Assembly (NCBI RefSeq): GCF_006385685.1
Contig: NZ_VFRP01000007.1
Coordinates: forward strand, 1 to 64,000
DNA length: 64,000 nucleotides
DNA from: Amaricoccus solimangrovi
GTDB taxonomy: Bacteria; Pseudomonadota; Alphaproteobacteria; Rhodobacterales; Rhodobacteraceae
Reading direction: 5' to 3'
The notes below the pieces were generated by a model that ran no database searches, was not told the DNA's origin, and saw only the letters and a program-made list of their open reading frames with translations. A program made the position numbers and the translations under genes. Positions 5,135 to 46,601 of this stretch are shown in pieces. Every line of letters starts with the position of its first letter. The first letter of the stretch is position 1.

Positions 5135-5149
5135 GTTCCCAACTTGTTC
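5135..5149 (-). promoter_or_regulatory. LexA (SOS) box upstream of recA
   Basis: The plus strand reads GTTC, seven bases, GTTC, an exact match to the alphaproteobacterial LexA operator (GTTC-N7-GTTC, read as GAAC-N7-GAAC on the recA strand). It is 53-67 bases from the recA ATG. On the recA strand a weak -35-like TTGGCT just upstream would place the box inside the promoter, but the -10 is unclear. Confidence 0.9.
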
Positions 5150-45125: not shown

Positions 45126-45395
45126 GATACAGCTGCCCAACCTCAAGTCCCGTGGTAAAGGAACAGTGGAAGCCCTTGGCTTTCAGATTTTTTCCGACGC
45201 AAGTTTTCCGCGCTTCCTGTGCGTAATCCGATTAGGGCCGAAGCCGGCGGCGCCTGTCAACCTTTCGTGGCCATCTCATCGCCCGGCGGCGGAGAACCGC
45301 GCACGAAGAATTGAGAACACAGTGACTTCGCCGGCGGAAGCGCACGCTATCCGCGGCCGGAGAGGCGGAGGGGACGCAAATCCCGCGTGGCATAT

Positions 45396-45410
45396 GTTCT
45401 CTTTTTGTTC
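45396..45410 (+). promoter_or_regulatory. LexA (SOS) box upstream of the radical SAM gene
   Basis: GTTC at 45396-45399, seven bases, GTTC at 45407-45410, an exact alphaproteobacterial LexA operator like the one at recA. It ends 13 bases before ATG 45424. The only other such box I found in a promoter position of this window is that of recA. Confidence 0.85.
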
Positions 45411-45423
45411 CAGAATGCCGGGC

Positions 45424-46515
45424 ATGGATGACACCGAATCGGACCGGATCGACAAGTCCCTCCGGCGCGCGCGCGGCGCCGCCAGCAACCGCGACGGCCG
45501 GTTCGAGCGGCATGCGCGCCTCGCCTTCCACGACGGCTGGGGTCTCGCGGAGGAGACGCGGCCGCCGCTCCGGACCGAGGTGGCGATGGAGCGGGCGCGC
45601 ACGATCCTGGCGCGCAACGAATCGCCCGACCTCTCCTTCGACCGCTCGGTCAATCCCTACCGGGGGTGCGAGCATGGCTGCGTCTACTGCTTCGCCCGGC
45701 CGAGCCACGCCTTTCTCGGGCTGTCGCCCGGGCTCGACTTCGAGACCCGGCTGACCGCGAAGCCGAACGCCGCCGAGCGGCTGGCGGCGGAACTCTCGCG
45801 CAAAGCCTATGTCTGCGCGCCGATCGCGATCGGCACCAATACCGATCCCTATCAGCCGGTCGAGAAGCGGCTCGGCATCACCCGCGCCATCCTCGGCGTG
45901 CTGCGCGAGTTCAACCATCCGGTCTCGGTCCTGACCAAGGGCGCGCTCGTCACCCGCGACGCGGACATTCTCGGCGAGATGGGCAGGGCCGGGCTCGCGC
46001 GCGCCGGGCTGTCGCTGACCACGCTCGACCCCGCCCTCGCCCGCGCGATGGAGCCGCGCGCGGCGGCGCCCGCGACCCGCCTCGCCGCGATCGAGGCGCT
46101 GGCCGCCGCCGGCTGCCCGGTCTGGGTCTCGCTCGGACCGGTGATCCCGGGGCTGAACGACATGGAGATGGAGCGCCTGCTCGCCGCGGCGAAGGCGGCC
46201 GGCGCGCGGGGCGCCGGCTACATCGTGCTGCGCCTGCCGCGCGAGGTCGGGCCGATCTTCCGCGACTGGCTCGAGGAGAGCTTTCCCGACCGGGCCGCGC
46301 GGGTGATGAACCTCGTCCGCCAGATCCACGGCGGCCGGGACTACGATCCGGAATGGGGCAAGCGGATGACCGGCGAGGGGCCGATCGCCGCGCTGATCGC
46401 CCGGCGCTTCGCCGTCGCGAGCCGGCGGCTCGGCCTCGACCGCCCCTGGCCCCCGCTCCGCCGCGACCTCTTCCGCCCGCCCCGCCGCGGGCCCGAACAG
46501 CTCAGCCTGTTCTGA
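45424..46515 (+). CDS. PA0069/SplB-type radical SAM protein
   Basis: A 363-residue radical SAM enzyme of the COG1533 (SplB-related) group called PA0069 or Rv2578c family. The Fe-S cluster motif is C-E-H-G-C-V-Y-C (C-x3-C-x2-C) around residue 80, preceded by S-V-N-P-Y-R-G, and G-T-N-T-D-P-Y-Q-P-V and V-L-T-K follow as in the family. The N-terminal R-G-A-A-S-N-R-D-G-R-F-E fits. ATG 45424 or 45415 could be the start; no ribosome site is obvious. The substrate is unknown; relation to spore photoproduct lyase and the LexA box point to nucleic-acid repair. It is followed by a perfect inverted repeat. Confidence 0.88.
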   Translation: MDDTESDRIDKSLRRARGAASNRDGRFERHARLAFHDGWGLAEETRPPLRTEVAMERARTILARNESPDLSFDRSVNPYRGCEHGCVYCFARPSHAFLGLSPGLDFETRLTAKPNAAERLAAELSRKAYVCAPIAIGTNTDPYQPVEKRLGITRAILGVLREFNHPVSVLTKGALVTRDADILGEMGRAGLARAGLSLTTLDPALARAMEPRAAAPATRLAAIEALAAAGCPVWVSLGPVIPGLNDMEMERLLAAAKAAGARGAGYIVLRLPREVGPIFRDWLEESFPDRAARVMNLVRQIHGGRDYDPEWGKRMTGEGPIAALIARRFAVASRRLGLDRPWPPLRRDLFRPPRRGPEQLSLF

Positions 46516-46517
46516 CG

Positions 46518-46601
46518 GGGCGGAATATGCATATGCATATCGAACGGCCACGCGCCGGACCGCGAGCCGGACGGGAAGATATGCATATGCATATTCCGCC
46601 C
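46518..46601. repeat. Perfect 23-base inverted repeat with ATGCAT core
   Basis: Arms at 46518-46540 and 46579-46601 are perfect complements, separated by 38 bases. Each arm is GGGCGGA- followed by a 16-base AT-rich self-palindrome with two ATGCAT units. The element begins three bases after the radical SAM stop and ends 82 bases before the MFS start, in an otherwise GC-rich region. It could be a terminator, a twin operator or a MITE-like element. Confidence 0.9.

Follow-up and report, generated by a model that had tools for sequence, protein, structure and literature searches.

We analyzed a 64,000-nucleotide stretch of the Amaricoccus solimangrovi genome (contig NZ_VFRP01000007.1, positions 1–64,000; hereafter the window) that holds a PA0069-family radical S-adenosylmethionine (SAM) gene. 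The gene is preceded by a LexA-type operator, and its product has the C-terminus GPEQLSLF, i.e., it ends in a motif of the type that binds the β sliding clamp (Table 1). The protein matched the PA0069 family model NF033668 over the entire profile (1–348 of 348; 494.9 bits, cut-off 360), also matched PF04055, and was the only family match in the 4.86-Mb genome. A first-pass annotation of this DNA had called the gene PA0069/Rv2578c-type. The former assignment holds, but the related Rv2578c model NF038135 reached only 208.8 bits against its cut-off of 430. The PA0069 family is common: 166 of 196 Rhodobacterales genomes and 171 of 398 genomes of a phylum sample have a match over cut-off. We know of no substrate for it. 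Among titles and abstracts matching either name we found no functional study of PA0069 or Rv2578c; PA0069 turned up in a microarray gene list.

Table 1. Features of the PA0069-family locus, with the comparison box near recA, in window coordinates.
Feature	Position	Strand	Remarks
−35-like hexamer TGGCAT	45388..45393	+	Resembles the consensus, not a mapped promoter; 17-nt spacer
Predicted LexA operator GTTCTCTTTTTGTTC	45396..45410	+	Exact GTTC-N7-GTTC; fills the −35/−10 spacer; conserved in related loci
−10-like hexamer CAGAAT	45411..45416	+	Directly after the box; ends 7 nt ahead of ATG 45424; assigned from spacing
PA0069-family radical SAM gene	45424..46515	+	363 residues; stop codon included in coordinates
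CxxxCxxC [4Fe-4S] ligands C82, C86, C89	45667..45690	+	76/76 in the alignment, partly by construction
Variable low-confidence linker, residues 351–358	46474..46497	+	Mean pLDDT 66 for the block 351–360
C-terminal β-clamp-binding-type motif QLSLF (Q359–F363)	46498..46512	+	Conserved in homologs
recA-upstream box GTTCCCAACTTGTTC	5135..5149	+	Comparison only

The exact GTTC-N7-GTTC box ends 13 nt ahead of the ATG at 45424, as the first-pass annotation had stated. On its own, this pattern is weak evidence of SOS control: three exact copies were seen in the window vs 1.05 expected, 14 of 100 shuffles reached three, and the genome holds 106 copies compared with 38 of the reversed pattern. One of the other two window copies, at 1960, sits within a coding region reading as alanyl-tRNA synthetase. 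The second, at 5135, had been described as a recA box of identical form; it does lie upstream of recA (ATG 5081, minus strand; both genes were named by eye) but has the opposite orientation relative to its gene. Elsewhere in the genome (G000:C2:90739–90799), two identical GTTCCCTTAATGTTC boxes stand on opposite strands, 31 nt apart, which is possibly a divergent SOS promoter.

Conservation was followed in two sets of loci. The first comprised 110 best-scoring relatives picked without regard to boxes, i.e., the 30 best matches from the 196 Rhodobacterales genomes, 79 of 80 named loci and the window itself. The second was drawn from 60 regions spread over the families of the phylum, 58 of them usable, with 21 from the same class (Alphaproteobacteria) and 37 from other classes. 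Three loci in which the motif regular expression was not found were dropped before counting: L137 (tail QLNLL, alpha-type box), L178 (tail QGSLF, CTGT-N8-ACAG) and L192 (tail QGSLF, neither box), all of which have the cluster cysteines all the same. The two sets gave 168 homologous proteins, 166 of them distinct; L033 and L062 look like one locus.

In the equivalent 260-bp segment, the exact box occurred on either strand in 101 of the 110 loci (94 on the strand of the gene), compared with 12 of 2811 control windows taken from these loci (Fisher p ~1e-161, relatedness of loci ignored). We hence regard the box as real, and the orthologue comparison that the first-pass annotation had proposed bears out its LexA-type assignment. 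The same box was found in 18 of the 21 further alphaproteobacterial loci (background 1/106). The other classes carried CTGT-N8-ACAG at the equivalent place in 20 of 37 loci (background 0/187), and two of the remaining 17 had TTAGYAATAATACTA, which we take to be a Xanthomonas-type site. Because the site changes together with the LexA motif of the clade, LexA control is hard to replace by another explanation. The PA0069-family operator lies in the putative promoter and is conserved in relatives, which are the marks of a LexA/SOS regulon member, and LexA is predicted to bind it. A LexA chromatin immunoprecipitation sequencing and mitomycin table for Streptomyces venezuelae (PMC9380542) lists a radical SAM gene, vnz_31145, which may or may not belong to the PA0069 family.

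For the promoter layout we used 39 promoters, including that of the window, with an in-frame ATG 9–17 nt past the box, the only range scanned. The ATG lay 11–13 nt past the box in 37 of them and 16 nt past it in two. The start at 45424, where the first-pass annotation had placed it, is therefore likely; another in-frame ATG, closer to the box at 45415, falls partly within the putative −10 element. Directly past the box, the first base was T in 31/39 and the second A in 36/39 promoters, opening a TANNNT-like −10, and TTGC stood at the matching −35 position (±1 nt) in 26/39, the window not among them. These positions suggest that the two hexamers function as a promoter. Judged from the spacing, the transcript of the window gene is probably leaderless. 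This layout is not general, as in many other alphaproteobacteria of the set the ATG lies further from the box.

Many proteins of DNA replication and repair dock on the ring-shaped sliding clamp through a short motif. The C-terminus of the protein agrees with the consensus of clamp-binding motifs, QL[S/D]LF or QxxLF, as given in passages of PMC12309361. According to the same passages, Bacillus subtilis PolC has QLSLF at its C-terminus; this β-clamp client thus shares the identical C-terminal pentapeptide with the window protein, PolC being a polymerase. A Q..L[FL] or hexapeptide-class motif was present within the last 12 residues of 162 of the 168 homologs, compared with none of 629 naive open reading frames of at least 150 amino acids, some of which are surely not genes. 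The six remaining homologs end in QLSFF (two) or QLSLI (one) or hold the motif further in (L093, L152, L153). By regular-expression class the 168 tails divide into Q[LM]xLF (92), Q[LM]xL[LI] (48), other QxxL[FL] (23), hexapeptide (2) and others (3).

In an alignment of 76 sequences, Q359 was invariant, L362 was conserved in 74 and F or L at position 363 in 73, while columns 354–358 ahead of Q359 were variable or gapped. Altogether 41 columns were invariant, including Q359. The homologs had been located with a regular expression that requires the CxxxCxxC cysteines, so that the invariance of C82, C86 and C89, and of some columns near the cluster, partly reflects this choice; the tail played no part in it. 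In the AlphaFold2 model the predicted local distance difference test (pLDDT) score is mostly >90 over residues 51–350, and falls to 66 for residues 351–360 and 54 for 361–363. Sequence and model together show the pattern of a short linear motif that is strongly selected. A conserved motif of the QL[S/D]LF/QxxLF type in a flexible stretch is the sequence signature of a β-clamp client, and the window protein would accordingly be predicted to bind the β sliding clamp (DnaN) through it.

Among 15 wider relatives (14 plasmid stretches and one phage record, tails read by eye; the end of L211 was not resolved), six end in or near Q..L[FL]: Tsukamurella QESLF, Streptomyces QLTLL, Arthrobacter QEPLF, Roseburia QQSLFD, a gut phage contig QMSLFE and Aeromonas, of PA0069 type, QLRLF. 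Four actinobacterial plasmid relatives, one of them annotated as Rv2578c family, have the tails QESLF, QEPLF, QLTLL and QLALV, the last being a near-match from a protein in which the CxxxCxxC regular expression failed. The protein of the gut phage contig (L213, MT835833.1) is a clostridial-type SplB-like radical SAM protein whose ending is of the clamp type. On the Runella plasmid pRUNSL02, typed as conjugative, an SplB-like radical SAM gene overlaps a UvrD-helicase gene (L207, 1450–3438).

A DNA-maintenance gene, rnhB (RNase HII), frequently adjoins the PA0069-family gene in other Alphaproteobacteria. With queries picked by a signature regular expression and hits counted if they start at most 700 nt past the stop on the same strand, rnhB lay directly downstream in 52 of 165 loci having at least 700 nt downstream, i.e., in 45/77 of loci L062–L141 and in 7/58 of the wider set, all seven among its 21 Alphaproteobacteria. 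It is hence not a universal operon partner, and we found no other. A CcrM-like methylase sequence occurred in 16 of 80 loci (strict regular expression), in 12 of them downstream on the same strand; among L062–L141 such a DNA methylase gene sometimes follows rnhB. In the window, the neighbors are a Sde182/nucleoside-hydrolase-like gene and a major facilitator superfamily (MFS) gene. Just past the radical SAM stop lies a perfect 23-nt inverted repeat (46519–46600; GGCGGAATATGCATATGCATATC and its reverse complement, separated by 36 nt) that may form a terminator-like hairpin or represent a small repeat element. A phage origin of the gene was rejected: phage matches were partial and distant (four records, none covering 80%), and in four viral contigs the gene sits at one end of the contig or no more than ~1.3 kb from it, which looks like host flank. 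Scans of viral contigs with clostridial and Rv2578c relatives gave nothing useful.

Taken together, we consider it likely that this is a LexA-repressed SOS gene for a clamp-tethered radical SAM enzyme that acts on a DNA lesion. LexA on the predicted operator, which fills the −35/−10 spacer, would stand directly in the way of RNA polymerase, and transcription would begin at the ATG or close to it. Upon SOS induction the enzyme, with its radical SAM fold like that of spore photoproduct lyase (SPL), would be made, and its flexible QLSLF tail might dock in the hydrophobic cleft of the β sliding clamp and hold the enzyme on DNA. At stalled forks or freshly replicated gaps, a 5′-deoxyadenosyl radical could then act on the lesion, the chemistry most likely being direct reversal of a base–base cross-link or another radical-type base lesion. 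Of this picture, the operator, the family, the fold, the cluster ligands and the conserved motif in a low-confidence tail come from the computations; promoter function, binding of LexA and of the clamp, DNA as the substrate and the chemistry are inferred.

Several observations weigh against this proposal. The exact box is missing in 9 of the 110 loci and 3 of the 21 further alphaproteobacterial ones, 15 of the 37 other-class loci are without any recognizable box, and the −35 and −10 hexamers of the window are weaker than those of many relatives. Residues 1–50 of the model have low confidence as well, so that disorder by itself is no distinguishing mark of the tail. Three of the 15 wider relatives have only near-match tails (Nonomuraea QLALV, Acetoanaerobium QLSFF, Monoglobus QLGF), and five SplB-like ones, three from Bacilli, that of Runella (Bacteroidota) and the mobile-pair-B protein, lack the motif, which is therefore not general to SplB-like proteins. 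Moreover, rnhB adjoins the gene in 0/30 loci of the window's own family and 0/37 loci of other classes, an rnhB match was not found in the window, and the literature searched yielded no damage phenotype for the PA0069 family.

The substrate might instead be RNA, a nucleotide or a protein, with SOS control being incidental or reflecting a role in tolerance or at a checkpoint, and with the clamp tail doing no more than localizing the enzyme. We regard this as rather unlikely. The nearest solved fold of the model is that of SPL, a DNA-acting enzyme, which scored ~4–6 Z units above other radical SAM folds in structure comparison; DNA is also what the clamp is loaded onto, and the frequent rnhB neighborhood in other Alphaproteobacteria points the same way.

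The resemblance to SPL also raises the view, implied by the name splB, that a true SPL became part of the SOS regulon and that 5-thyminyl-5,6-dihydrothymine is the lesion it repairs. Passages in PMC3323433 predicted in 2012 that splB is under SOS control in alpha- and beta-Proteobacteria, with Rhodobacter sphaeroides and Paracoccus denitrificans among the Alphaproteobacteria of a figure legend. SOS-regulated splB (COG1533) is described also for Bacteroidetes and other groups (PMC3323433, PMC8565304), and SplB-like photolyases have been linked to ImuB-C and the SOS network in passages of PMC3765255. Repair of ultraviolet (UV) lesions is proposed in PMC3323433 and PMC3765255. This splB shares with the window gene a LexA-type operator upstream of an SplB-like radical SAM gene. 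PMC3323433 treats it as SPL, and the passages on SOS splB mention neither a clamp motif nor a missing cysteine; a Caulobacter repair-gene paper (PMC1839093) makes no mention of splB.

The family nevertheless differs from SPL in having no conserved cysteine outside the cluster, a clamp-type C-terminal tail and an SOS box upstream. Cysteine columns of the family alignment, which is not a residue-level superposition, show only C82, C86 and C89 as invariant, with the next commonest column at 26/76. The solved SPL mutants C140A and C140S, named in structure titles, mark C140. This residue is presumably the H-atom donor, i.e., the catalytic cysteine, and a counterpart is not conserved in the family. 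Identity of the window protein to solved SPL (PDB 4fhc, 4fhe–4fhg, 4k9r, 4rh0) is 12–13%. The A1 profile search returned no SPL entry at E ≤ 1, and hhalign against one SPL sequence gave a probability of 21% and E 0.001 over 69 columns. None of 142 alphaproteobacterial genomes had a match over cut-off to the SPL-family model TIGR03886 (TIGR00620 was not searched). The model had four weak matches: L219 belongs to the PA0069 family, L217 and L218 resemble SPL (L217 against solved SPL, E 4e-14) and L220 was not resolved. The fold agrees with the relation to SplB claimed in the first-pass annotation. We reject both a true SPL, given the lack of a conserved cysteine beyond the cluster ligands, and the TIGR03886 family as the alphaproteobacterial SOS splB; a relocated SPL is an improbable account of this gene. 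Since TIGR03886 is absent over cut-off from these genomes and PA0069 is found in most of the order, we infer that the alphaproteobacterial splB of the 2012 prediction is the PA0069 gene.

Still less probable is that the tail serves as a degradation tag or packing element. Most tails do end hydrophobic, and the five-residue motif is the exact protein end in 142/168 homologs, but it is followed by 1–21 residues in 24/168, and in L153 it lies deeper in the sequence. A degron would not be expected to keep a Gln invariant four positions ahead of the final motif residue or to switch between clamp-motif classes, and the model shows the tail unpacked. A chance box in a gene outside the SOS regulon, conceivable for so common an 8-letter pattern, is practically dismissed by its conservation in related loci and by the different LexA motif that replaces it in other classes.

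The interpretation of the first-pass annotation as a whole is partly supported: its regulatory claim is sound, and SOS control was already in print. We found no literature linking PA0069 with LexA. Presumably, PA0069 belongs to the Pseudomonas aeruginosa SOS regulon and Rv2578c is under LexA control. The clamp motif is the new part of our findings. We found no report of a radical SAM enzyme with a clamp-binding motif in the open-license literature searched, and the window protein would be the first such enzyme known to us. An independent parallel is seen in archaea, where, in passages of PMC4929162, SplB-like genes adjoin NreB with a possible PCNA-binding (PIP) motif and cross-link repair is speculated upon. 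Both cases tie an SplB-like radical SAM gene to a possible sliding-clamp partner, with the motif in the neighbor NreB in archaea and in the enzyme itself in the window.

With the clamp motif, a radical SAM gene known only for its LexA box gains a specific model, i.e., damage-induced recruitment to the sliding clamp. If this is true, the motif places the enzyme on DNA behind or at the fork, the search for a substrate could concentrate on replication-associated DNA lesions instead of spanning everything that radical SAM enzymes act on, and one residue, Q359, could separate catalysis from recruitment. The importance of the finding rests partly on the spread of the family. Tentatively, PA0069 enzymes, probably together with the Rv2578c and clostridial groups, may form a widespread class of clamp-tethered, SOS-induced radical SAM DNA-repair enzymes, encoded directly before rnhB in many Alphaproteobacteria, that would reverse a replication-blocking lesion without the SPL cysteine, with archaea doing similarly via NreB and PCNA.
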